Below, one piece after another: positions 12,868 to 35,098 of a stretch of 64,000 nt of DNA. The first letter of the stretch is position 1. Every line of letters starts with the position of its first letter. The notes beneath the pieces were generated by a model, which saw nothing but the letters and a program-made list of their open reading frames with translations, was not told where the DNA came from and did no database searches. This stretch comes from Ciborinia camelliae (taxonomy: Eukaryota > Ascomycota > Leotiomycetes > Helotiales > Sclerotiniaceae). The position numbers were made by a program, and so were the translations under genes. The stretch lies in the NCBI GenBank assembly GCA_025890175.1, contig JANPYM010000024.1:1-64000 (forward strand), in the 5' to 3' direction.

Positions 12868-14721
12868 ATGAATCAAGATGATCAAATCCCTTCTGATCAA
12901 GAGATTGACTTTTGTACTCTGGGAATGTTCATAATTGGTATGTACCATAATGTTCATGTATATGTATCTTATGTACAGATTCACTTAGGGAGGGGGGTGT
13001 ATAAAAAAGCCAAAACCCTGAGAAGTCTCAGAGGATGGACCATCTTAAGATCCTAAGAACGACATGTCAAAACCAACCAATATATTCATCATTTGATATT
13101 TAATTCTTCATCATCTCTCATATCTAGTGATAATGAGCTGCTCTTCATTTTTTTTGACATTGGGAGTGATAATTGTTGGCAAGATTCGTGAAACGGTTGA
13201 GATGTTGATGTTGTTCATGCATGAGGTACATACATTGATCGCGTCTCACCAATTTTAAGGGTCAACCACAACATTGGTCTATCTGAACACTTCATGGAGT
13301 TATGAAATCTCTTTTGGAATGATGTATACCTTGGAAACCTCATTGTTTACAAAAATGTGTATCACGTTTTTTTACTCCGATTTTACCCGGCATTTTAACT
13401 TCATGTTCAAGGATGATGTATGTAATATCGTGACTGCATTTCATGTCTCGAATTTTTATATTCTCCATGATCTACTAGGTAGCCACATCTACTATTGATA
13501 TAATTATTAACAATCCACCCAGATGAAATACATTACCTCCCACCAACACCCTCAGTATATAATGTTCTCGGTGGTGCTGGTTCCTATTCCGCCCTGGGAG
13601 CGCGTCTCTTCTCTCCACCACCCCTCTCCAAAAGCATATCTTGGATAGTGGACAAAGGATCCGACTTTCCCCCATCCATCTCCCACCAAATCACCACATG
13701 GCAAACCTCATGTCTAACCCGTACTGATGTCACCCGTCTCACAACCCGAGGCTGGAATGGCTATGACTCAAATGACGTGCGATCTTTCAAATACACCACC
13801 CCCAAACTTCGACTCGACGAAACTTCCCTATCCGATCATCCACCACTTTTATTTGCAAAATCCTTTCATCTGATTTGTTCTCCAACTCGCTGCATAGACC
13901 TCATAACCCGGATTCTCTCACTCCGCAAATCCCATTCACCAAACCATCCCAAGCCCCTCTTTATATGGGAACCAGTACCAGACCTCTGCACCCCCACTCA
14001 ACTTCTCAATTGTACCAACGTCCTCCCCTACATCGATGTCCTTTCACCCAACCACTCAGAGCTAGCCGGATTCATGGGCGATCCAGAACTCGGGCTCACA
14101 GCATCGGGAGAAATCTCTACCGAAGCCGTTGAAAGATCCTGCGAACAATTACTCGCATCCATGCCCCTCCAATCCTACTCTATCGTCGTCCGTTGCGGAG
14201 CCCTAGGATGTTACGTGGCGAAAAACGGAGGAAGAAGTCGACGCGCAAGCAAGAGTCGTCGAAAACGTCCAGCCATCCGTTCGCGTGGCGGTCTCACCCT
14301 AGATATGAATATGGAAGATCTCTTCGCGGGCTTGTTATCGGATAAAGGGGAATTCGAATTCGAACGTAATGATTATCCACCTGTGGATCCGGGCATCGAA
14401 AAATGGTTCCCGGCTTTCCATCAACCAAGTTTGCACTCGGATGGGAATGGAAATCCAAAAGTCGTAGATCCAACGGGTGGCGGTAATGCATTTTTAGGTG
14501 GGTTGGCTATTGCACTTGCGAGGGGAAAGAGTATTTTAGAAGCCAGTTGTTGGGGTGCGGTGGCGGCTAGTTTTGCTATCGAACAAGTGGGCGTTCCGGT
14601 GTTGGGTGTTGGAGAGGCTGAAGGAGAAGAGGAAACTTGGAACGGAGTGCTAGTTGAAGAGAGATTGAGGGACTTTATGAGCAGGGTGGGAGTGGGTCCT
14701 GCTGAACCTGTTTCTAGATGA
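12868..14721 (+). CDS. MAK32: MAK32-like PfkB-family protein
   Basis: Exon 1 (12868-12937) and exon 2 (13523-14721) encode 422 residues. The intron is 585 bp, large for this genome; donor GTATGT, acceptor CCCAG, phase 1. The join restores TLGMFII-DEIHYLPP, as expected of the family. The protein has the PfkB sugar-kinase fold: a GGAGSYSALGAR segment near the N-terminus and DPTGGGNAFLGG near the C-terminus. In active PfkB kinases the latter reads GAGD and its Asp is the catalytic base; here residue 345 is Asn. Yeast Mak32 is needed for structural stability of the L-A killer virus particle, and the fungal family lacks a proven sugar substrate. A basic linker (RRASKSRRKRP) is inserted mid-protein. 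Function here may be non-catalytic. Confidence 0.88.
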
Positions 14722-16878
14722 ATTTCTTTTCGGGTAAAGGGATACAGATGGAGAAAGAAAAGAGACGAAGGAAAAAACTTGAAGAGATAGATACCACTAA
14801 CAAAAAGAAGAACGAAAAACGAAGGATGGACAATGAAGAACGAAAAAAGCAGAATGAAAAATGAGAAAAAGTCGAGGAAGTTCAGAACTTATATATATAG
14901 ACGAATAAATAGATATGAGAATTCACGTTGCATTACATTGCGTATTACTGGTAAATTAAATTCTTTCCAATGTTCTTCGTTTCCAGGCCGTGTTGTGGAG
15001 TGCAGTGCAGGAAAGTGCAGGAAAGTGAAGTCACGGCCCCCGTTTGATAGATCCAATTTATTAGGAGAGAGGAGAGGAATAGGATGAGAGTTGGGTTACA
15101 GGGGAAAAACGCGCGATGGATGGATGGATGAGGAAGGAAAGTCATTTATTTATTTGTTTATTTTGAGAAGGTTTTTATAGTGGTTACCGTGCTTCTATGT
15201 AGAGTGTTGTAGGGAGGTGTGGATGTTATTGGACTTTGGATTGGATTGGACTTTGGATTGGATTGGACTTTGGATTGGATTGGACTTTGGATTGGATTGG
15301 ACTTTGGATTGGATTGGACTTTGGATTGGATTGGACTTTGGATTGGATTGGACTTTGGATTGGATTGGACTTTGGATTGGATTGGAACAGAAATGCATCT
15401 AGATAGGATTTAGTTTGTGAATTTGTAGAATCGGGGGGGGAGAGGAAATGAGAGAGGAAATGAAAATGAGAGAAAAAGGCGAGCGAGCAGGATGTCACAG
15501 TGCGGTGTACTTAATTAGTTGATTAAGGAATTAAAATTTTATTGAAATTAAATTATTTATTAAGCCGATTCTTTAATATTAATATATGAATATGCTAATA
15601 TATCTAGGGTGAAGAGGGGGGGGGGGGGTAGGCATTTGGATATATATGTAGATGTGTATAATTATTCTATAAATATTTTAATTCCAAAGAGGAAGACTAA
15701 AGAATTCGAAATTTTCTCATGGAGAACTTGAAGTTGGAGTTAAATTAACAAAATATCTTAGTAGACAGGTACTTTATACTTATGTATTTAGATATAAAGA
15801 GGAAATCGAACTTAAACCGGAGTGTAAACTTATAAAATGGTCAGGACATTTTACTTTAAGTATCCATGTCACGGTGAATAGAATACTCTCTCCCCTCCTC
15901 TGGGATAGAATAGATGATTTAGATTAAGGCTTAAATGTCGGATTTATTTTTTAAATAGAATATAACGAACGGTATGGTTTTTATTATGGCTTCGAGTCTG
16001 ATCGTTTTGGACTTTGGAAACTTGAATTGCGGGGAAAATGAGGGGAAGGGATTGGAAGTTGAACTTGAAGGGACTTTGCTTGGAAGGACTTGGTTTTTTT
16101 TGGATGAGGGACAGTGTGTAATGTGTAGTGTGAAGGTGGATTTATGGTGGGTGGATTTGGATTGAGATTGAGATTGGGATTGGGATTTTTGTTTTGGGGG
16201 AAGGGAGGAAGGGGGAGAGAAAAGAGAGAGAGCGAGAGGGGAAGAGGATGAACGACGGATAAACAGATAAATATTTATGTTTTATGGATATTTTTGATAC
16301 GTTCCGGGTCTTTTTGTTGGGGGGGGGGTGGAGATAGAGATGGCGATGGATAGTTAAATCAATAGGTATTTAAATATGTAGATATTTGTGTTAATTTTGA
16401 TGAGGTTAGTGATAGCGATGACGATGGCCATGGGGATGGGAATACGGAGATTATAAGGGTTGGATTTCGCGTTGCGTTATCATATTATAGGTATTGTATA
16501 TTGCAAGGAAGAGAACTTAGTGATAATTGTAATGAGTGGATGTAGGAGACAGGAATGATAGTTGCATTGTATTAATTATCACACCTAAATATCAAGACAA
16601 GATCACACAGAACGAATATTTAATACAGTAGACCGCAACGATGTGATGAATTCTTTTTATTGACTCAAAGAAGAACATCTATTTATGTTATGGTAAAATC
16701 ACGATTTGCATTCCTTTAATTGTCTCCCACCATTCTTAGTCTAATTGTCACTCATAAACTGAGAGACAAGAAAACCGTTGAATGTCACGTAGCTCTTATA
16801 GCTCATTCCAAAATTCCAAAATCCCACCCGTGTTATCCTCTCCATAGATTATCCCTAGTGCCCGTTTAATTCTATAAC
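14722..16878. other. Intergenic region with minisatellite and G-runs
   Basis: Between the MAK32-like gene and the minus-strand gene ending at 16879. It has a purine-rich 3' flank, the 17-bp minisatellite at 15231-15386, poly-G tracts near 15434, 15616 and 16319, and an AT-rich patch at 15500-15780. I see no supported gene. Confidence 0.5.
15231..15386. repeat. 17-bp minisatellite, nine copies
   Basis: Nine nearly perfect head-to-tail copies of GGACTTTGGATTGGATT. Because 17 is not divisible by three, all frames stay open across it and produce false ORFs on both strands. Confidence 0.95.
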
Positions 16879-17457
16879 TTATGCATTCAATCCTCCTGCT
16901 TCCTCTCCCTCCACAGCAGGGTTTAAATAAATCCTCTTCCAGTTTTGATCCCACCCCAGCCCCATGAACGCCTCAAACTCCCGATATAAATCATCATTTT
17001 CTTCCAACTCATTCAACTCCAAGTTCTTCTTTCCTGCAAACAACTTCTTCCCACGATCAGAAATATCGGCTTTCAATTTACTCCAACGACCCAGTAAATC
17101 GGACTTCGACCACACTTTCCGGTAAATATCAACAAACGCCTGGTATCCTTCATGATCTCTGATATTCTTCCTTTCCTTATCGATTCCCCAAGCTACTTCC
17201 CTCGATTTATTCGCTACGAAATTGAGATCTTGGCGTTGGGATTTGGAAGCACTGTCCCATGCTTTTTCGAGTTCTTCAAGTCTTTGGAAGACGGATGCCA
17301 TGCGCGATAGGAATTCCTGTACATCGTGGATTTCGTTGTTGAAATCTTGAAGGCATTGTTGAAGAGAGGTGGAGGTCGAAGGGGTTGTGAGGGCAAAGGT
17401 GAAGGGGGGGAAGTTCAACCTGAGGGTTGATGGAGAGGGATTTTGATTATCAGTCAT
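16879..17457 (-). CDS. Hypothetical coiled-coil protein, array-family relative
   Basis: A single exon of 192 residues starts MTDNQNPSPSTLRLNF. No known domain is recognised. After a Ser/Thr/Pro-rich N-terminus (1-30) it is highly charged and helical, with heptad-like segments (MASVFQRLEELEKAW and DLNFVANKSREVAW). The EELEKAWDSAS stretch matches the loose L-x-x-x-W motif seen in the small proteins of the 24.6-31.9 kb array. Its upstream DNA also contains an array-like leader piece (TCATCAAAACGAAATACCTCAAC). I infer it is a dispersed member of that family. It is divergently arranged with the gene at 18240. No signal peptide or membrane segment is present, so it is probably cytosolic or nuclear. 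Confidence 0.65.
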   Translation of the reverse strand: MTDNQNPSPSTLRLNFPPFTFALTTPSTSTSLQQCLQDFNNEIHDVQEFLSRMASVFQRLEELEKAWDSASKSQRQDLNFVANKSREVAWGIDKERKNIRDHEGYQAFVDIYRKVWSKSDLLGRWSKLKADISDRGKKLFAGKKNLELNELEENDDLYREFEAFMGLGWDQNWKRIYLNPAVEGEEAGGLNA

Positions 17458-18239
17458 GATTTATTTTCGATACCTGTAGTTGATAAAGTAAAGTAAAGTG
17501 AAGTTTCGCCTCGATTTAAGTGATAGGAAGTTTAAAGTTCGCGGTACAGTATCAAACTGCCTGATCTGTTGAGGTATTTCGTTTTGATGAGAGACGATGA
17601 TGACGTGATTTGAAGACTGTTCGGCGGTTGTGATGTGATGTTAAGAGAATGTATTCCAGTCCTAGGATTGAACTCCGAGAAGAACAGAAAGTATAATGCG
17701 AGGTGATGTGAAGCGATGTGATGTGAATCATAGACTAAATTATGTAAGAATCCTAGCTCGTGATCTGTGGATGATGATTTGTGCATAATAATATACCAGG
17801 AACTTTTCTGCAAGGATTTTGAACACCTAGCTTGTTCGATACCCTTGGTGTATTGCGATGACACATGTGACAAAGTAGTTGATGCGTAGTTGGGTTTAGG
17901 TGCTTTCCTGTTGTGCTTTACTTTTCAACAATACTCCATCTGCAGATCGACATATCAAATACATCAACATCTCTCAAAACTTCAAGATAAATCGAAAAAA
18001 CACACATCAAAAACTCACAACCCTCACAACCCTCACAACCCTCACAACCCTCACAACCCTCACACACATCCATCCATCTACTCCTCAGACAATCAGTCAA
18101 GTCTGATACCACTAATATCGACCTACACATTATCAAAACGATACACGTTGCTACCTAGGTCGATTGCACGGCATTATATCACATCATATTACACCATATT
18201 TCCTCGCATCAACAGCTTTTAAAGTCACAAAACTGAATC
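17458..18239. promoter_or_regulatory. Shared divergent promoter region
   Basis: This 782-bp region separates two head-to-head small genes and should hold both promoters and leaders. It includes six to seven CACAACCCT 9-mers (about 18013-18062) in the leader of the plus-strand gene. No specific binding site is recognised. Confidence 0.5.
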
Positions 18240-18794
18240 ATGGATGAAATCCTTTCCAAAATGATATCCGACAACCCATCCGACAACCCATCCGACAACC
18301 CATCCGACAACCCATCCGACAACCCATCCGACAACCCATCCGACAACCCATCCGACGACAAATCCGACAACAAATCCGACAACACATCCGATGTCAACGC
18401 CAACGTCAAAGTCCCATCCGAGAACGAATCCGAAATCGACAAACTCAAAACAACAATCAACGCCATTTCATCCATGTGGGATAGCCGCCCTAAAGACAAG
18501 GATAGGGTAGAGTTTTTAAGTAAACTGCTTTCGTCCCAGGTGGAAAAGCCCGCCATAGAACTTGATGCATCACAAAGATGGCATGGTTGTTCTACACGCA
18601 CCACTCTGGGTTTAGTTTATGTGTTTAATATGATGTATATATTGCGGGAAAAGATTGACTGCGAGGAAAAGAAGATAAGGGAAATGGAGGAGGTGAGGAA
18701 GAAGGAAGAAGAGATTGGGAAGAAAAAAGAGGAAATGGAGGAAGGGGAAATGGAGGAAGGGGAAATGGAAGAGTGTGGAGGATATTTTGTTTAG
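18240..18794 (+). CDS. Hypothetical charged coiled-coil protein with DNPS repeats
   Basis: A single exon of 184 residues. The ATG sits in an AATCATGGATGA context resembling the starts in the 24.6-31.9 kb array. Residues about 10-50 are tandem SDNP/SDNK tetrapeptides encoded by a 12-bp minisatellite (GACAACCCATCC). The middle (EIDKLKTTINAISSMWDSRPKDK) carries the helix-then-Trp motif common to the array proteins. The C-terminal third is a Lys/Glu-rich coiled coil with repeated GEMEE units and ends CGGYFV. There is no signal peptide. The repeat number should vary between strains. Function unknown; family membership is inferred from the motif and start context. Confidence 0.6.
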   Translation: MDEILSKMISDNPSDNPSDNPSDNPSDNPSDNPSDNPSDDKSDNKSDNTSDVNANVKVPSENESEIDKLKTTINAISSMWDSRPKDKDRVEFLSKLLSSQVEKPAIELDASQRWHGCSTRTTLGLVYVFNMMYILREKIDCEEKKIREMEEVRKKEEEIGKKKEEMEEGEMEEGEMEECGGYFV

Positions 18795-21395: not shown

Positions 21396-24145
<2,750 letters not shown>

Positions 24146-24640
24146 ACTTTGGAGAAAGGAAATGATGATGGGGCGAGTGGGAAAATGGTTTTTGGTATGC
24201 GCACATAAAAGATCTTGGGGAAAATGGATCGTGTGTTGGTTTCTGAGTGTGAAGGATAGGCGGAGACAGGAGCGATGAATGTATTCATGTATGCGAGGAG
24301 TTGAGGTTCTAACAATCTCCGAATTAGTTTATGAAATGTTTTAATCAAATTTGTTTCATGTTCTCGCCTTTCGGTTACTTGGGCTACCTAACAATGGTCC
24401 ATGTCTATTGAAAGAAACCGGGGAGGGGGAAGGATGGGTTATTTTGACTCCAGTGAGTCTAGTACATTTTCATATTGTATGGGGAGATAGTATTACTCCA
24501 TGCCGAAATAACACGTTTCCAAATCCAAATTCACATGCGATTCGTCTTGATGCTCCGAGTTCGGAGCCTTGAAGACTCATCTATTCTAGAAGATTTGTGA
24601 TGTGTATCCGGAAATAATGTTTCTCGGCAAGAATTTTCTA
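24146..24640. other. MCM3 3' flank
   Basis: 3' UTR and spacer before the modular array. Short frames here have no features. Confidence 0.5.
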
Positions 24641-24858
24641 GGTTTGATTATTGGGACGTTTTTGAGTCGATGAAACATATTATGGGAGTTGTGAGCTATA
24701 CTCTGGGGTTCGCCTTTGATTTTCGTTTTTCTTTCCTTTTTACCTTGTTTTTCTTTATGTCAACTTTTGATATTCGATATATCAACGCATCGAAGCATCA
24801 ATATCTACATCGAACATCCTTTTGATTAAACCATCTTCAGAAACGTCTTATATTACCC

Positions 24859-25879
24859 GATTGATTTTAACTCGCAAGCACGGAATCCCGTGGAGTCGAT
24901 TCATGCTTCGGATACCGGTTCTTGGGGCGAATGGAAATGGCGTTGGGATCCCGAGCGTCTCGAAAACAGCCTTTCGGAGAGAATTCGAGGCGGCCGCATG
25001 ATGGGATATCAAGACGGACCAAACGAAACTATAGAATGCCAGCGAAACGGCCGTTGGATGAGATGTTGAGACGGTTCAAACGGAACATTGGAATGCCAGC
25101 TTTCTATCAACCTTGGAGATATACCAGCAGAAGGAGCTTATTCACAACTACTGCCACATTGGGGCGAATGGGAATCGGATCCCAAAGACGGCCGTCGGAA
25201 GAGATTTCGAAAAGGTCGAGCCGGAGTGATGGAGATTGAATATGACATTCCTGATACAATGTCAGTGGAAGGAATTAATCCTATACAGGCATTGCTATCT
25301 TGGGACGAATGGGAGTGGAATACCGACAATTGCCAATGGGAGAGATTTCGATTTCAAAACGATCCAAGGAGAGTAATCGGGTTCCAGTATTTTACTAGCC
25401 CTGATAAAGTATCGGCGGAAGGAGCTTCTATTAATCCACAACAGTTATCGCTATCTTGGAGCAAATGGGAGACTACCTACCCCCACCATTGGAAGAGATT
25501 TCGAGATGGACCAAATGGAATGCTTGAGATGCAGTATTTTGTCGCTAGTCATGTTGAAATGGTAGCGAAAGAAGCTATTAATCATTCAAGGCCATCATCA
25601 TCTTGGAATTTGAATACCAACAACCACCGTTTGGAGAGATTTCGAAAGGGTCCAAATGGAATGATACAGCTTCAGTATTCTAGTCCCGCTGGTTAATCCA
25701 ACATCAAGGGAACCAGCTTATATTAATGCACAAAGCAACCCTGCTATAATCTCACAAGTTTGGGGGCATAATTAAGTATACCTCCGCAACCACCAACACT
25801 TCATTCGCAACTTCCACCAGAATATCAACAATATCATCATCGGCAACCTCGGCAAAATTAGCACACATGGTTTGAAGGC
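24859..25879 (+). pseudogene. Relic with Trp-rich WxEW...RFRxGPNG repeats
   Basis: The frame ending at 25696 shows four to five copies of a unit of about 45-50 residues: SWxEWEW, a short linker, W(E/K)RFRKGPNG, (M/I)xxxQY, then SAEGA...LS. The frame extends upstream through SWGEWKWRWDPERL to about 24859 without any ATG. It is cut by a TGA at about 25066 at a position where other copies have CGA (Arg). After the TAA at 25694, more coding-like sequence rich in Pro and Gln (PPQPPTLHSQLPPEYQQ) runs to about 25879. The leader and tail match the array although the protein is unrelated to its neighbours. The family is not identified. I call it a pseudogene because no start is available. Confidence 0.55.
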
Positions 25880-26696
25880 TAAAGGGGGCGATGGTGCATC
25901 GAGGCGCGGATAGGGATGGAAGGGGGTGAGTGAGTGCCGGGAGGTATTCGATGGAAAGGAAGGGAATACGTGATTTTACAGTTTGATGGAAAGAAAGTAC
26001 TATACGTGATTTTACAACTTGATGTAAAGAAAAAGAATGCTTGATTTTGTACTACAGTAAATGCTTTTTCACATTATAGAAATAAAATGTTGTAGTAGTT
26101 TGGGTAAACTTACAAATCTAGTATATGACACATATTGTGGTTGATGTAAGGTATCCTCAAGGGCTCTCCTTTGCTCTCTCTCTCTGTCGTTCTTTTTCTT
26201 TTGCATCGACATTCGATATTTGATATTCGATATTCTACGTTCAACGCATCAACCTCAACATCAATATTCGATATTCTACATTCAACGCATCAACCTCAAT
26301 CAACCTTTCGATTAAACCATCGTCAAAAACCTCTCAACGGAACAGATACCTCACATCCATCTCTTCATTTCGTAATCAGTCTTACCCTAGTTTCATACCA
26401 CCTTCACATTCTTCTTTTTATCATCGAAATCAAAATTTCCGATCTTATCCATCACCTGCCAACGAATCGATATCCAACATCCTTTCGATTAAATCATTAT
26501 CGGAAAGCTCTTCTCGAAACAGATACCTCACATCCATCTCTTCACTCCGCAACCAGTCTTACCCTAGTTTCATACCACCTTCACATTCTTCTCTTCATCA
26601 TCGAAATCAAATTTTCATATCGCATCCATCACTTGCCAACGAATCGACCACTCAACCAACCAATAACACACCTCCTAAACCCAAAAATCAAGAATC

Positions 26697-26990
26697 ATGG
26701 CCGACATTTCATTTCGCATCAGCTCTCTCGAACAAGAGCAGCAGGACTTAAAAGCGGAATGGGACAATAAAATCAAAACATCTGATGAATGGATCACAAT
26801 AAATACTTTTCGGGAAAAAGTCTGGAAGTGCTACTTAGAGGCAACATACTTAGAATCCATAGCGGCAGATACTGAAAATGAAAACACGGCAAGAAATCTC
26901 GCGTCAAAGATCCACGAATTGCATGCTTTGGCTCTGACTCTTTTGAAAACGGTGCTCCATCAGCCGTTCGATACGTTCCTAGAAGATTAG
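26697..26990 (+). CDS. Array gene A: 97-residue helical protein
   Basis: A single exon starts MADISFRISSLEQEQQDL. The start is supported by the AAGAATCATGGCCGA context shared with the other array genes. It is predicted helical, with QQDLKAEWDNK carrying the family Trp after a leucine-spaced helix, and the C-terminus ends FDTFLED. There is no signal peptide, membrane segment or known domain. The leader (26170-26690) is open in another frame for 200 codons, but that is repetitive UTR. The tail at 27060-27180 has the common TTTGGATATT and GTGATTTTACAACTTGATGG elements. Function unknown. Confidence 0.6.
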   Translation: MADISFRISSLEQEQQDLKAEWDNKIKTSDEWITINTFREKVWKCYLEATYLESIAADTENENTARNLASKIHELHALALTLLKTVLHQPFDTFLED

Positions 26991-27932
26991 GATGAAGGTG
27001 CATAACCTTTGTAGTGGAGGAGAAGGGGGCACGACGAATACGATGATGGTAGGATAAAAATAATAATAAGTGTGCAATTTTGTAATGAGATATGAGAGAT
27101 ATGGGAGAGATTTGGATATTAATTGGAAGGAAAGGGATGGGTGATTTTACAACTTGATGGAAAGGAAAGGAAAGCAATGCCTGTTTTCTTACTACAGTAC
27201 AACCTTCTCTATCACTTGATAGAAATTAAATATTGCTGTAGTTTACCCAAAGTTGAAAATATTGAAGTAAATTATATGTGATTCATATGGCGATTACTTG
27301 ATGTGATTCTTACTTTTGAGCTCTGCTTTGCTCTCACCCTCTCTTCTTTTCGTTCTGCTTTTCTTTTGTACATCGACTTTCAATACCTATATCAACACAT
27401 CAACATCAACATCGAAAAGCCTTTGATTAAATCGTCATCAGAAGCTTCCCCTTGAAACCAAATACTCTGTACCTTAACTCAACTAGATCCTTCTATTCTT
27501 TAAGAAACCTCCCATTGAAACAAATACGACATACTTCAACCACATTCATCTTTTCGTTCAGAAACCTTCTATCGAAACAAACTACGCAATACTCGACTCA
27601 ACCACACCTACCTCTTCATTCAGAACACTCCCATCAAAATAAAAAACGAAGTTTCCATCAACTAGATCCGTCTCCTTATTCAGAAACCTATCATCGAAAC
27701 AAATACAAAGTACCTCAACTCAGACACATCCATTTCTTCGTTTAGAAACCTCCCATCGAAACCAAATACTCTGTACCTCAACTATATCCGCCTATTTGGT
27801 CAGCAACCAGCCTCTCCGTAGTGTTATATCACGGATCTGCCAGTAAACCTTCATATTCTTCTCTTCATCATCGAAGTAGAGTTTCCCATCACCTGCCAAC
27901 GATCCATCTGCCTATAACAAAAATAAAAAATC

Positions 27933-28409
27933 ATGACCGATACCGATGCCGATGCCGATGCCCAAATATCCATCAATGCTCAAAGACGCCTTGACGAGAT
28001 CTTCGTTCGAATTGAGACGATCCAAAAGAAATACGATCAATTCCGAACCCAAATCAAACAAAAATTTAAAGACAAAGTTACTGCTTTCGAACAGGATTTG
28101 ATTTCTCTTGAGGAAGAAACGAAGGCTCTGCAAAGTTTATGGGCCACCCCTGAATCCGATCGAACTTCCCAATTTTATATTGAATTTAAAGTTGAATTGT
28201 CGGCGGTGGAGGATATGTCATGTTTCTTGCTTGATGCCTCAGTACATGGGGCTGAGAGTGAGGGTGAGGTTGAGGTTGAGGTTGAGGCTGAGGCTGAGGC
28301 TGAGCCCATTTTAAATGAGATGAGGGTTTTTTCTGGATGCCTGAGGGAGGGAGTGAGCTGCGTAATGGAGGAGATGGGGGGCAAGGGAGATAGGAGGATA
28401 AGAGGATAG
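27933..28409 (+). CDS. Array gene B: 158-residue acidic coiled-coil protein
   Basis: A single exon starts MTDTDADADAQISINAQRRL in the common AAATCATGACCGA context. An Asp/Ala dipeptide repeat at the N-terminus and an EVEVEAEAEA repeat (residues about 110-128) come from 6-bp expansions. Between them lies a coiled coil (RIETIQKKYDQFRTQIKQKF) followed by KALQSLWATPESDRTSQFY, the best example of the array motif. The frame continues a few codons into the purine-rich tail (GGKGDRRIRG), so the true end may have been eroded. Unknown function; probably intracellular. Confidence 0.6.
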   Translation: MTDTDADADAQISINAQRRLDEIFVRIETIQKKYDQFRTQIKQKFKDKVTAFEQDLISLEEETKALQSLWATPESDRTSQFYIEFKVELSAVEDMSCFLLDASVHGAESEGEVEVEVEAEAEAEPILNEMRVFSGCLREGVSCVMEEMGGKGDRRIRG

Positions 28410-28978
28410 AAGAATAGAAGGACAGAAGGACAGAAGGATAAAAGGATGATAAAAGTGTAATTCTGGGTATGCATGAGATATGGAAGGAATTTGGATATTT
28501 GGAGGAAAGAAAAGAAATGTGTGATTTTACAGTATAGTTTGATGGAAAGGATGGAAAAGCGTGATTTTATATTACCGTCGATGTTTTTCTATAATTTGGA
28601 AATAAAATACTATTGTAACACATAAACCTTGATTGATCAAATATACTTTAGGGTTGCTTTGCTTTTCTTTCTGCTTTTCTTTTCTACACCAACATCCCTG
28701 GGTACCTATCAATACATCAATCCATCGACATCGATGCATAAACATTAATACTACACAACCTTCCAATGAAACCATCGTCAAAAACTTCTCGAGACAAAAT
28801 AGGTATTTGAAATACCACAACTGTATCGGTCTATCAATTGAGCAATCAACCCTAGCCTATCACCATATCACGAACCTAGGTGTTCATTTTTAAAATCCAT
28901 ACAATCTTCACTTCATCATCGAAGTTGAATTCTATTATCGGATTACATGTATCTCCCCATACCGAAAAATCAAAAATC

Positions 28979-29230
28979 ATGGCCGATGCCCAAACAAGCC
29001 TCGATGCCAAAGCAGAAGCACGCCTCAAGTTGATCATAGAAAGATATCAGAAACTCCAAACTCATTCACAAAATCAAACATCAAAATACACTGTGACTAC
29101 TATCAAAAAAGCATGACTTCTCTCCATAAAAGCGTACAGGATCTCTAATCGATATGGAACAAGACCTTGGAATTCGATCCAACTCCCGACTTTTATCATT
29201 GGTTTGAAGATAAAATATCTCGGGGATGAA
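28979..29230 (+). pseudogene. Array gene C: broken copy
   Basis: It begins normally with MADAQTSLDAKAEARLKLI in the AAATCATGGCCGA context but stops after 45 codons (TGA at 29114). In another frame directly downstream the family motif continues as KSVQDL, a TAA, then SIWNKTLEFDPTPDFYHWF, which parallels KALQSLWATPESDRTSQFY of gene B. One frameshift and one nonsense codon therefore separate it from an intact relative. Its leader and tail are still recognisable. Confidence 0.65.
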
Positions 29231-29689
29231 TGAATTAAAACATATGTATATGGGATCTTCCTGCTTAATGGTGAGAATGATGGGGTGGATGATGGTGACT
29301 TGTTGCCCATTTTACATCAGGAGTTTTTCTTTATAGATGAGGGAGATAGGAGGATAGAAGGATAGGAGGGTAAGCGGGTAAGAAGGTAAGAGAATAAGGG
29401 GATAGGAGAATGATAAAAGTGCAATTCGGATTTGAATATGAGAGATATGAAAGTAGTTTGGATATTTGATGAATAGGATGAAAAAGGGTCATTTTATATC
29501 ACAGTAGATGTATCTCTATAACTTGCAAATAACCCTGATTAATCAAATGACTCTAATATATGACACTTAATGATCAACATGAAGTGTACTTTCGGACTTT
29601 CCCTTGCTTTCCTTTCATTTTGTTTCTCCTCTTCCTTTCTACATCAACACATCGATCCCTCAACATATCCATCCATCTACCCATCAACA

Positions 29690-29830
29690 CATCTACCCAT
29701 CAACACATCTACCCATCAACACATCTACCCATCAACACATCTACCCATCAACACATCTACCCATCAACACATCTACCCATCAACACATCTACCCATCAAC
29801 ACATCTACCCATCAACACATCTACTCATCA
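29690..29830. repeat. 16-bp minisatellite in the leader of array gene D
   Basis: About nine copies of CCATCAACACATCTAC. It is an expansion of the CATCAACA motif present in all array leaders. All three forward frames are open across it, which creates false ORFs of 99-132 codons. Confidence 0.9.
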
Positions 29831-30085
29831 ACATCAATATCAAACAACCTTCCCATTAAACAGTCACCCAAAACCTTCCATCGAAACAAAATACCTCGAC
29901 TGCATTCATCCATCCATTCAAAACGCACTCCAAACCTACTACCAGACCAGCAACCTTCCCATTTTTAAAACCCGTAAACTCTTCAAAGGTTAGCTTCATC
30001 ATCGATGTCACGTTTTCACATCGCATCATTCGCTAACAAAACAAGTAACCTATCACAGATCTCCTAAACCCAAGAATCACAAGTC

Positions 30086-30613
30086 ATGGATGATACTCAA
30101 ATCATGGATGATACTCAAATCATGGATGATACCCAAATCCAAAAATCTGTCGAGATCATTCAACACCGAATGGAGGGAGTCCATCGATACCTCGCTTGCA
30201 GCCCTGATTCCAAGGAACAAAATCAAACACTTATAGCCATCAACTATATCAAAGGATGCGTCATTTTCCTCGACGTAAAGAATTTGGAACTCCAAAACAC
30301 ATGGATTCACACCTTTGAGCCCAACAAACGAATTAAAGCAACGAGAATGATCATCGATATTAAGAAAAAGATGATCCCCCTCATTCGAAAGTTGGACGAA
30401 TTGGTTCAATACGATACCCCAGTAGGCGACCGAAATATCCCTGATTCATTGCGGAAATATAACTGTGTATTGGTAGAAATGGAGCTGTGGAAACGTGAGT
30501 TGGACAGGTTGATGGATAAGAGTGAGGGTAATGGTCAGGGTAACGGTGAAAATAAGGATGAGGGTAATAGTCAGGGTAATGATGAAATTGAGGATAGGGG
30601 TGAGAGTGCGTAA
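30086..30613 (+). CDS. Array gene D: 175-residue protein with triplicated start
   Basis: A single exon opens with three tandem copies of an 18-bp unit encoding MDDTQI, so three in-frame ATGs are available; the first is taken. The helical body contains KNLELQNTWIHTFEPNKR, aligning with the family Leu/Trp motif, and further charged helices (MIIDIKKKMIPLIRKLDELV). The C-terminus is a low-complexity Gly/Asn/Glu tail (GNGQGNGENKDEGNSQGN) from a trinucleotide-phase repeat. No signal peptide or known domain. Tail elements lie at 30677-30880. Function unknown. Confidence 0.6.
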   Translation: MDDTQIMDDTQIMDDTQIQKSVEIIQHRMEGVHRYLACSPDSKEQNQTLIAINYIKGCVIFLDVKNLELQNTWIHTFEPNKRIKATRMIIDIKKKMIPLIRKLDELVQYDTPVGDRNIPDSLRKYNCVLVEMELWKRELDRLMDKSEGNGQGNGENKDEGNSQGNDEIEDRGESA

Positions 30614-31286
30614 GCTGTTTGACGGAGAATGTATGGGGAAAGTGGGATAGGAGGATATAAGGATCAGAGGATAGGGGTATGAAAGTGGAATTTCGGATTA
30701 GGATATGAGAGAGATGTGGGAGGACCCGGAGGAATTTGGATATTTGATTGAAAGGGAAGGAAAGGAAAGGAATGTCTGATTTTTCTACCATTTAATAAAG
30801 GCAATGCGTGATTTTCCATTATTTGATGAAAAGAACAAAACCGAGTGATTTTCTATTATAATAATCATGTCTTCACTATTCAACGAAACCAAATGTTGTT
30901 ATCGTTTCTTCAAATATATAAATCTTAGTAAAATGATATATAAAACATTAAATGAGTAATGTGAGGTATATTTCTGAACTTTGCTCCTCTATCTACTTTT
31001 AATTACTACATCAACATATCAACATATCAACATCGACATATCAATATCGACATCGAAACCAAACATTCTCCCCATTAATCCTTCCATCTTCAGAAACCCT
31101 CTATTGAAACAAAGTACGCATTATCTTAACCATATCTGTTTCTTAATTCCGCAACTAATGTTACCCAACCTAGTATCATATCACGAATCTGCCCATTCTC
31201 CAAACCTTCACATTCTTGTCTTCACATCGCATCGCCTATCAAAGAATCGTTCTACCAATCAACCATATCTCCCAAACCGAAAAGTC

Positions 31287-31655
31287 ATGACCGATATCCA
31301 GGAACGCATCCTCTGCACCGAAGTGAAAATTCAGGAACTCGAGGGGGAATTCAATTACATGCCTGAATCTGACGACGATATAAACATACTTCCTGTTTTC
31401 CTAAACAGATTGTACGATGATATTGTAAATCCGGTAAACCATATTATCGAGTCCGAAGGATTCCAGGCGCTGGATGAAGAATCTAAAGAGAGGGTTTCGA
31501 CTGTGGTGGCAAGGATTAAAAGGTTGCACGGTTTGATTCAAGAACGTCAGAAGGACTTGTCAAAGCAAGTCTTATTGACGCTAGGGTTGTTGGGGGCGAC
31601 GATAGCGACGATAGCTGCTCTTTTGAATGGAGTTGTGCGGGCATATGCTACGTAA
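31287..31655 (+). CDS. Array gene E: 122-residue protein with C-terminal membrane segment
   Basis: A single exon starts MTDIQERILCTEVKIQELEG in the AAAGTCATGACCGA context. The upstream part of the open frame (from 30981) is leader sequence. A coiled-coil body carries a diverged family motif (KIQELEGEFNYMPESDDD; the Trp is replaced by Phe). Residues about 97-120 (LLTLGLLGATIATIAALLNG) form a hydrophobic helix followed by a short polar tail, which would make it a tail-anchored membrane protein, unlike its soluble neighbours. The tail elements are at 31709-31900. Function unknown. Confidence 0.6.
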   Translation: MTDIQERILCTEVKIQELEGEFNYMPESDDDINILPVFLNRLYDDIVNPVNHIIESEGFQALDEESKERVSTVVARIKRLHGLIQERQKDLSKQVLLTLGLLGATIATIAALLNGVVRAYAT

Positions 31656-31905
31656 TGGAGGGGAGAGGAGGCAATGAGGATGGGAGGATGGGAAGATGAT
31701 ACATGATGAATGATAAACGTGGAATTTTAAGGGTTGAAGTTTCAGGGTGGTCTTTTGGATTGGGATATAAAAGACATATGGGACTCGGAGGAATCTGGAT
31801 ATTGGATTGAAAAGTCAATGCGTGATTTTTACACCACAGGAGATGCTTCTCCACAACTTAATAAAACGTAAGAAGTCACTACAGTTTACCCTAACGTTGA
31901 AGTTC

Positions 31906-32692
31906 AAGTCTTGATTTATCAAATAAAATGTGACAATCATACGATGTCACGCTGCAGATGCGACGCCTCTTTTTGTGGCCTGACTTCTCAGAGAGTGCTA
32001 ATGGAGTTCTCCGAGTTGAATGTTTACAACAATATTGAAGAAAAGATACGGTTACCATGTAACATATGTAGAGCACATTGTAGAGCCTCTCTTCGTACCT
32101 TAATCTAAATAGTTCAATCCAACCTATTGCTTCCCACCATTCCCTGAAGAGTCATACTCTTAACACGTACATTAGAAATCAAACATTATCTCAAAACTAT
32201 AAACTATAATATAAATATGGTTGTAACATTCTTAACCTTCAGATGTTCTTTGAAAAGTTATAAATACTTAAAAATCACCGTTTTTTATGTGAATAGTAGT
32301 CAGAGAGAGGGCCTGAAAATTCGATAGGAGACTTAGAGGACCAATCAAGCCATTAGCCGCCTAAGCTGTAGCACCAGTCGGAGTCAGATGTAGATATTGG
32401 ATTGTACTGGATGAACTTTGGGCGAAAACCCAACGACAGTTTCAAGAAGCAGCAACCGACCTATCATGTAGCTCTCAATTTCACGACCCGCCATTTTCCA
32501 AACGGGCCTCTCGATCTCGGCACGATTGTCAAAGATATCAAACAATACTGTCCGATCAATCAACGCATTACCAAAGAATGTCCCATAGAAAGAGAAGGTC
32601 GAGTTTAGATGATTCCTCGGTTGTTTTGATCAGACAATCTGGGGCTTTGTTAACAGGCAATCAGTGTATTCAGGGAAAGGACAATAGCTGTC
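31906..32692. other. Array edge and unassigned spacer
   Basis: It begins with CTTGATTTATCAAAT, resembling the junction sequences at 28625 and 29532 in the array, and may be the start of a seventh, lost module. A short plus-strand frame at 32402-32608 (containing FTTRHFPNGPLDLGTIVKDI) looks like a gene fragment but is too short to name. No complete gene. Confidence 0.4.
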
Positions 32693-32833
32693 GGATCACC
32701 TCGGTGGTATTATTGTTTTTCAATAATGTAAAATAGTATATTATAAAAAGCATGCAGATCGATCTACGATCGATCTGCGAGCTTATATGCCCGCGCCCCG
32801 ATGAATCTGCCCTGCAGATTCACTGGTATCACA
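32693..32833 (-). repeat. Multi-hairpin element, copy 2 (inverted)
   Basis: The reverse complement matches copy 1 at 2150-2317 from GATACCAGTGAATCTGCAGG through GCATATAAGCTCGCAGATCG and CATGCTTTTTATAATATAC to CCACCGAGGTGAT. It keeps perfect stems GCAGATCGATC/GATCGATCTGC (32754-32778) and TGAATCTGC/GCAGATTCA (32802-32822). It lacks a segment of about 30 bp, including half of the ATATGCCCGCG hairpin. It abuts the truncated end of the URC4 relic. Confidence 0.75.
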
Positions 32834-32837
32834 ACAA

Positions 32838-34067: not shown

Positions 34068-35098
34068 TCAGGCCTCCCCGGCAATGCCGGCGATTGAGCT
34101 TGAGCGTATGACACTGAAAACTTTTTGGAGGGCATCGAAATTATGGACATCTGCCCAAGGAATTCTGTCCTGGGCTCCCACACTTTGAGTCATGATTGCA
34201 GCGGCTTTGTACGCTCGGATAACCGCGCTCCTGATGTCCCAAACCCCCTTTTTCTTCTTCTGGAGGTATTCAGAGGCATATGCCCACGTGAAAGTATCTC
34301 TAATCAAGTTAACATGTGCATCTAGAAATGAGTAACAAAACCAGAACTCACCCTGCACCTGTAGTACCCTTGCCCTTGACATTAAATGTGGGACAGTGAA
34401 CAATTCCAGTTGTGTTGGCATAAAACGCGCCTTTAGAGCCCAGTGTGATAACAACGTTTTTAACACCGCGGCTCAAAAGCTCCCGACAGATTACCATCCA
34501 AGTATCTTCGTTAACCTCATCCCTATCGCGGCCAGACATGATAGCTGCTTCTGACTCGTTGACCAGCAAATGAGTAAGATGCTTGTAGAAAAGTTTACCA
34601 ATAGGGGCTGCAGGGGACGCATTTAGACATAATTCAATGTTAGCCTTTCCAGCAGTTTCGATCATCGTCTCAACCACCTCCTTTTCGATTTCAATTTGAA
34701 CCAAATCTAAGTCAGGTCGGATACCGCCTCCGAGCTGCTCGGCGTCAATGAAGTCCTCTTTCTTCCAGGTTGCCGTTGCACCCAGCGTGAATAGGCACCG
34801 GTTCTCGCGTGTCAATTCCTCAAGTATGACGAAGCAGATGCTCGAGCGTGTGTTTGGGACTGTCACAATTCCGGAAGCATCAACGCCATTCTCATTCAAT
34901 TCGACGATAAACATCTCTCCGTAACGATCGTTGCCAGCCGCGCCAATCATCTTGACTTGGATGTTGCTTTCGTCTGAGCAGTCAATAATGGGACCATCCA
35001 GTGTTGGCTTCTCCGGTCCCATGGTCGGGGATACGATTTGCAATCATGATCAGATCAGCATCCAGCCCCCCGATAACTGCGATAGTTTGCAGCATCAT
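34068..35098 (-). pseudogene. Ribokinase-like PfkB gene with internal deletion
   Basis: The C-terminal two thirds are well preserved in two exons (35043-34352 and 34299-34068) joined by a 52-bp intron with donor GTGAGT. The catalytic TTGAGDTF motif spans the junction. An N-terminal start lies at 35098 (MMLQTIAVIGGLDADLIMIA), typical of ribokinases, but this frame stops at TGA after about 38 codons. The GGKGAN substrate-binding segment that should follow is absent. A deletion of about 90-120 bp with a frameshift explains this; no plausible intron does. The substrate would have been D-ribose, giving ribose 5-phosphate in the cytosol. A shorter protein starting at 35043 could still be translated but should be inactive. 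Confidence 0.75.

Follow-up and report, generated by a model that had tools for sequence, protein, structure and literature searches.

The first 64,000 bases of a 111,845-base contig (JANPYM010000024.1) from the 46.2 Mb genome of Ciborinia camelliae (Sclerotiniaceae), hereafter the window, contain six head-to-tail units, M0 to M5, which occupy 24.6-31.9 kb (7.3 kb in all) directly behind an MCM3 frame ending at 24145. The flanking sequences of these units are alike, while the coding bodies that they enclose have diverged almost to chance similarity. Considered with two probable relatives beyond MCM3, named N1 and N2, the array is, in our judgement, somewhat more probably than not part of a cluster around MCM3 of genes for small, helix-rich proteins, restricted to its lineage and evolving by birth and death. 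All six units follow one plan, comprising an upstream CT-rich tract, a CATCAA-rich sequence, a body and a tail. An earlier note on this DNA had described six modules with shared leaders and tails; the six units and their tails were recovered, and the ATG-proximal leader is common to M1-M5 only, M0 (24.64-26.14 kb) having the array promoter and tail alone.

Flanks and bodies were contrasted by pairwise local alignment, both sequences of a pair being dinucleotide-shuffled 100 times to obtain z-scores. Promoter and transcription-start regions had a mean z of 10.9 over 15 pairs (range 3.9 to 18.1), the 230-nt leaders of M1-M5 a mean of 9.8 over 10 pairs (2.8 to 17.5) and the tails a mean of 12.5 over 15 pairs (3.0 to 25.6). 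In contrast, the first 300 nt of the coding sequences averaged 0.54 over 10 pairs, with only M2-M3 clearly above chance (4.9) and M3-M4 at 2.1. The earlier note's proposal that flanks are here more conserved than coding parts was therefore borne out by separate alignment (mean z of about 10-12.5 for the three flank classes), as well as by a self-comparison of 22-34 kb, in which off-diagonal matches between units were numerous at promoters, leaders and tails and almost absent from coding parts. Global alignment with gaps permitted gave approximately 70% identity for flanks and 58% for bodies, against approximately 60-65% for shuffles (about 62% for those of the flanks). Around the start codon, gap-free pair identity was 0.53 at positions -24 to -13, 0.72 at -12 to -1, 0.65 at 0 to 14 and 0.31 at 15 to 29, and the values of 0.29-0.31 beyond the first 15 bases are near random, with indels adding to the drop. 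In a simulation on one coding segment, about 40-45% substitutions with indels were needed before z fell to 4-8, indicating that bodies, with z close to 0, have diverged further than flanks, with z near 10. The leader likeness was absent upstream of five other genes in the window, for which 25 comparisons with the leaders of M1-M5 averaged z 0.03 and peaked at 2.3.

The M1-M5 leaders are poor in G (5-10%) and depleted of ATG (5 observed versus 11.8 expected from dinucleotide shuffles, P 0.0095); those of M1 and M2 run for 491 and 563 nt without any, and three of the five leader ATGs belong to the broken unit M3. Tails contain 7-17% C, a poverty that is partly ordinary (13-22% C in the 3' flanks of five other genes) and from which nothing is concluded, and AATAAA is present in four of the six (M0, M2, M4 and M5). 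Slippage tracts, with units of 12 nt in N1, 6 nt in M2 and 18 nt across the M4 start among coding parts, and of 16, about 60 and 177 nt in leaders, are one visible source of sequence change. The parts of the array are listed below.

24640-24850, + strand: M0 promoter or transcription-start-like region (z 8.1-12.7 against the five other promoters).
24890-25696, + strand: M0 body, a Trp-repeat frame (SWxEWE...ERFRxGPNG...QY) with no visible relation to the other bodies, open to 25693 after an in-frame stop at 25067.
25920-26158, + strand: M0 tail, a match to the tail profile (the M0 tail itself being among the profile's sequences); AATAAA at 26081.
26125-26696, + strand: M1 promoter and leader, with a 177-nt internal duplication (26283-26470/26460-26647); ATG-free at 26206-26696.
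26697-26990, + strand: M1 coding frame, 97 residues, ORF-length P 0.001; protein relative of M5.
27059-27311, + strand: M1 tail (shuffle-tested alignment, tail profile).
27290-27932, + strand: M2 promoter and leader, with a repeat of about 60 nt in about five copies at 27440-27808; ATG-free at 27370-27932.
27933-28409, + strand: M2 coding frame, 158 residues, with a hexanucleotide run at 28250-28304; length reached in 0/5000 shuffles; identical to database protein P0002.
28442-28647, + strand: M2 tail (shuffle-tested alignment, tail profile).
28630-28978, + strand: M3 promoter and leader (shuffle-tested alignment).
28979-29226, + strand: M3 disrupted coding part; the first frame has 45 codons, and more likeness to M2 is seen by eye in another frame with stops.
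29406-29592, + strand: M3 tail (shuffle-tested alignment, tail profile).
29560-30085, + strand: M4 promoter and leader; ten copies of a 16-nt repeat at 29674-29833.
30086-30613, + strand: M4 coding frame, 175 residues, with an 18-nt repeat present three times across the start codon; length reached in 0/5000 shuffles; no protein similarity to the others.
30673-30973, + strand: M4 tail, with a rare 13-mer at 30803.
30945-31286, + strand: M5 promoter and leader (shuffle-tested alignment).
31287-31655, + strand: M5 coding frame, 122 residues, ORF-length P 0.0004; 100% identical to NHQ30_011668; hydrophobic stretch from residue 95.
31708-31930, + strand: M5 tail, with the rare 13-mer at 31817.

Four of the five open reading frames (ORFs) that start at the conserved ATG, all except M3, are far longer than expected by chance, which supports their reading as genes. 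From M1 to M5 they comprise 97, 158, 45, 175 and 122 codons, compared with shuffle means of 13-16 (P 0.033 for M3). The M2 protein and a 145-residue piece of M0 (P0003) are database proteins encoded by the window, and the M5 frame is identical over its 122 residues to the hypothetical protein NHQ30_011668 of C. camelliae. The database model of the latter has 161 residues and starts with two residues that are not contiguous in the window and may represent an upstream exon predicted by the annotation. A profile search built with M1 and M4 among its members did not retrieve either of them as a database protein. M3 is broken, and the Trp-repeat frame of M0 is interrupted by the stop at 25067. The leucine-spaced helix ending in Trp, which the earlier note had used to connect the proteins, is weak evidence by itself, M5 having Phe at that place (by eye) and M4 being without significant protein similarity; its M3 instance, QDL-SIWNKT, turned out not to belong to an intact protein, since it lies in another frame with an internal stop and the ATG frame ends after 45 codons.

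The earlier note had confined the system to the array, where the six units indeed lie, yet probable relatives were found outside it, at 16.9-17.5 kb (- strand) and 18.2-18.8 kb (+ strand).

18240-18794, + strand: N1, probable older relative nearest M2, 184 residues, with (ATCCGACAACCC)n; identified from protein shuffles, leader profile, 13-mer and tail z.
16879-17457, - strand: N2, probable older relative nearest M1 and M5, 192 residues, longest of the members that lack long simple repeats; identified from protein shuffles and tail z.

For the 21-pair and profile comparisons of proteins, N1, M2 and M4 were trimmed of their low-complexity ends. The M1 and M5 proteins are related (20 of 78 aligned residues identical; z 6.2 with BLOSUM62 and 8.0 with BLOSUM45, each 0/500 shuffles), as are M2 and M3 over their first 45 residues (z 4.6, P 0.002; P 0.005-0.015 in later comparisons), and M1-M2 is marginal (P 0.016-0.035). 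Six of the 21 pairs reached P <= 0.0075 (M1-M5, M1-N2, M5-N2, M2-M3, M2-N1 and M5-M3) and two more fell at 0.03-0.035. In full and block shuffles, respectively, a profile of M1 and M5 matched N2 at P 0.002 and 0/1000, M2 matched N1 at P 0.005 and 0.024, and a profile of N1 and M2 matched N2 at P 0.004 and 0.014. M1 and M5 thus have in N2, and M2 in N1, a closer match than in most of their array neighbours, suggesting two soft groups, {M1, M5, N2} and {M2, M3, N1}. Outside the coding parts, array tails compared with those of N1 and N2 gave mean z values of 2.67 and 2.4, where the highest of 40 random windows gave 2.16, and the N1-N2 tail pair reached 5.1. The N1 and N2 leaders are at pairwise background (mean z 0.88 and 0.72; random maximum 1.28), and the N1 leader at 18058-18251 is the best leader-profile match outside the array (17.3 bits versus 10.8 for the next). 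A genome search placed the 13-mer AATGCGTGATTTT at five positions, three of which are the tails of N1 (18897), M4 and M5. Based on these comparisons, N1 and N2 are probable older members of the array family beyond MCM3, N2 being inverted.

Several candidates elsewhere were rejected. At the two other 13-mer positions (C24, C25; L024, L025) and at a weak N2 match on C27 (expectation value, E, 0.144; L026), profile scores were low, the best being 10.8 bits for the leader model (in L024) and 9.4 bits for the tail model (in L026). In a small search N2 also matched one frame of L026 (E 0.00063), a match taken as likeness of helix composition because that frame has ankyrin repeats and a trace of SPX. 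Matches of M2 on C5 (E 0.06) and C23 (E 0.67) fall in frames of 308 and 705 residues that, by eye, look like larger, coiled-coil-rich proteins.

Searches of the protein database with M5, with a four-member profile of the array and with M0 (N1 and N2 not being among the queries) returned no homologue outside the locus, a result limited by the need for shared 5-residue words and by unchecked coverage of Sclerotiniaceae. Queried with M0, M1, M2, M4, M5 and N2, but not M3 or N1, the genome returned each protein itself besides weak matches in larger proteins (best E 0.06); the Trp-repeat frame of M0 at 24890-25696 therefore has no homologue outside the locus in either search. A DNA search found no close copies of the flanks elsewhere in the genome, and this absence holds for close copies only, as the search missed copies of 68-82% inside the array and a pattern search met only three array leaders. 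None of M0, M1, M2, the frame over the M3 start, M4, M5, N1 and N2 passed a curated Pfam cut-off, the nearest scores being N2 with PAH (19.9 versus 21.3) and N1 with the PT repeat (24.5 versus 26.2). Rfam gathering scores yielded no family at 16-33 kb, NCBIfam gave two low-scoring matches for seven proteins, taken as chance, and a sequence search of the PDB with N2 gave one match, a designed protein (E 0.33). A role in RNA structure was rejected, leader and tail folding and leader-tail pairing in five modules having z values of -1.6 to 1.5.

Structure prediction, suggested by the earlier note as a check for a common helical fold, gave three helices for M5 (predicted local distance difference test, pLDDT, 79) in a generic arrangement that, in comparison with spectrin-repeat and BAG-type three-helix folds among others, resembled many unrelated bundles equally well, and no telling match emerged; the M4 model (pLDDT 51) was not used. 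A hydropathy scan, as distinct from a dedicated predictor, detected no hydrophobic N-terminus in the eight proteins (M0-M5 including the M3 piece, N1 and N2), the highest 9-residue value in the first 35 residues being 1.04. Together with the 0-3 cysteines per protein, this argues against ordinary secreted effectors, and owing to the lack of a hydrophobic N-terminus the array proteins are probably intracellular.

The distances among array bodies are about equal to those separating them from N1 and N2, and the flanks are close only inside the array. Tail similarity tracks gene order: of 720 orders, four fit as well, two of them being the true order and its mirror image. Promoter similarity does so too (fraction 0.028), and one matching stretch spans a tail and the next promoter (26006-26218 with 27141-27385). 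Taking body distances, array-only flank likeness and tail order together, the simplest account is that local duplication or conversion renews the flanks, and that the bodies are older and diverge faster. Each unit would be a full gene, with promoter, long G-poor leader, coding body and tail, and would multiply by tandem duplication, while unequal crossing-over or short gene conversion may keep the array flanks alike. Bodies would outpace flanks through substitutions, indels, frame changes, repeat slippage and perhaps exchange, with M3 as an instance of gene death and, between a shared promoter and tail, one or more bodies (M0) of separate origin. The likely benefit, speculatively, would be that one small scaffold is available in co-expressed, ever-changing variants, the kind of repertoire seen in conflict or recognition systems, and such a role is a guess from the evolutionary pattern only.

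A number of observations weigh against this birth-and-death reading. Leader similarity does not track gene order (fraction 0.42), synonymous sites fail to separate accelerated bodies from homogenised flanks, and codon preference is only weakly gene-like, being best in frame +1 for M2 and M4 and about zero for M1 and M5. M4 has no relative among the array, N1 and N2 proteins (no comparison below P 0.09), the matches of M5 to M3 (P 0.0075) and of N1 and M2 to N2 cross the two groups, and the protein P-values are uncorrected for the number of comparisons. Additionally, tail-profile scores of N1 (11.5 bits) and N2 (10.5 bits) barely exceed the background of 9.6. Diversifying selection on the proteins, one of the explanations raised by the earlier note, is plausible, since coding parts that diverge more than their flanks are in line with it. 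For M2-M3, a codon-position proxy is at most suggestive (position 1 versus 3, P = 0.056; positions 1 and 2 versus 3, P = 0.16), and the same codon is used at 11 of 19 shared residues in M1-M5 (8.3 expected, P 0.16), 6 of 9 in M2-M3 (P 0.06) and 6 of 18 in M1-M2.

The earlier note's other explanation, cassette exchange between fixed expression signals, appears unlikely; recombination within the flanks would here have moved coding bodies that are unrelated or long separated. The unrelated Trp-repeat body of M0 between an array-type promoter and tail, and M4 without a protein relative, leave room for body exchange, and the best protein matches ({M1, M5, N2} and {M2, M3, N1}) are out of step with flank similarity. 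Nevertheless, the M1-M5 and M2-M3 bodies are related, no clear genomic donor was found for the bodies of M0, M1, M2, M4, M5 and N2 (M3 and N1 not being queried), and M0 is missing the ATG-proximal leader. Less likely again is that constrained or merely conserved flanks surround relaxed, dying and functionless frames, as the disruption of M3, the stop in M0, weak codon usage and the likeness of M2-M3 third positions (0.79, no lower than the 0.68 of first positions) might suggest. The length of four frames is far beyond what shuffles produce, and neutral decay alone would not bring bodies below flank similarity without constraint on the flanks; neither an Rfam family nor a folding signal in the five modules points to a structured RNA role, and the N1 and N2 flanks are conserved below the array level. 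We consider it highly improbable that the shared segments stem from a repeated element, mobile or satellite, that became inserted among genes with no relation to each other. A single match can run through a tail and the next promoter, as noted above, but leader similarity stops at the start codon, and the array opens with the promoter side of a unit and closes with the tail side of one, the arrangement expected from gene duplication. The rest of the contig contains no copies, and none were found in the genome by insensitive searches that missed most array copies.

Other features of the window were recorded in their own right. Frames of pfkB-type carbohydrate kinases flank the cluster on opposite strands (13648-14721, + strand; 34348-35043, - strand), a 17-nt minisatellite, (TTGGATTGGATTGGACT)n, lies at 15220-15390, and 32691-32836 and 2146-2322 form an inverted pair (72% identical) that may be mobile-element remnants.

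Conserved parts around hypervariable coding parts are found in cone-snail toxins and nematode hypervariable effectors, which are secreted and disulfide-rich or domain-flanked. The earlier note knew of no described family with the features of the array; at the level of pattern this does not hold, because it has been described in SSSGP-1 and related groups of the Hessian fly, a plant-feeding gall midge (PMC2955719). There, seven small genes, six of them in tandem, lie within 15 kb, with conserved promoter and 5' and 3' untranslated regions (UTRs) and mature coding parts diversified to near-random similarity; the genes are typically species-specific, and the authors propose positive selection and concerted homogenisation (PMC2955719). 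The same paper mentions cone-snail venom peptides. Tandem small genes in one short region, with flanks above coding parts in conservation, are common to both systems. A signal peptide is conserved among SSSGP genes, most groups of which also have an intron, whereas the array has no hydrophobic N-terminus and no established intron. Similarity scores average 84-94 in SSSGP 5' UTRs and 52-92 in 3' UTRs (PMC2955719), a different measure from the approximately 70% identity of the array, whose flank likeness differs in degree. The array is also fungal, with two older relatives outside it, and SSSGP is from an insect. In C. camelliae itself, the CCL-SSP family resembles the array in being clustered, lineage-expanded small-protein genes (PMC7060139), but its signal peptide and ten cysteines set it apart from proteins with 0-3 cysteines and no hydrophobic N-terminus. 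Searches of the open-licence PMC literature found no fungal case of this pattern.

The locus is compact (about 15 kb, with MCM3 inside) and suited to asking how flanks stay alike while bodies diverge. The lack of M1 and M4 among the database proteins retrieved hints at why genes of this kind can escape annotation. A tentative and rather doubtful further reading is that the cluster may be a fungal diversity generator, in which recombination between flanks would keep the expression frame and shuffle or renew the bodies, supplying co-regulated, changing helical intracellular proteins for self/non-self recognition, genetic conflict or non-classically-secreted host interaction. The question posed by the locus is what drives this change: the host, a rival genome or self-recognition.

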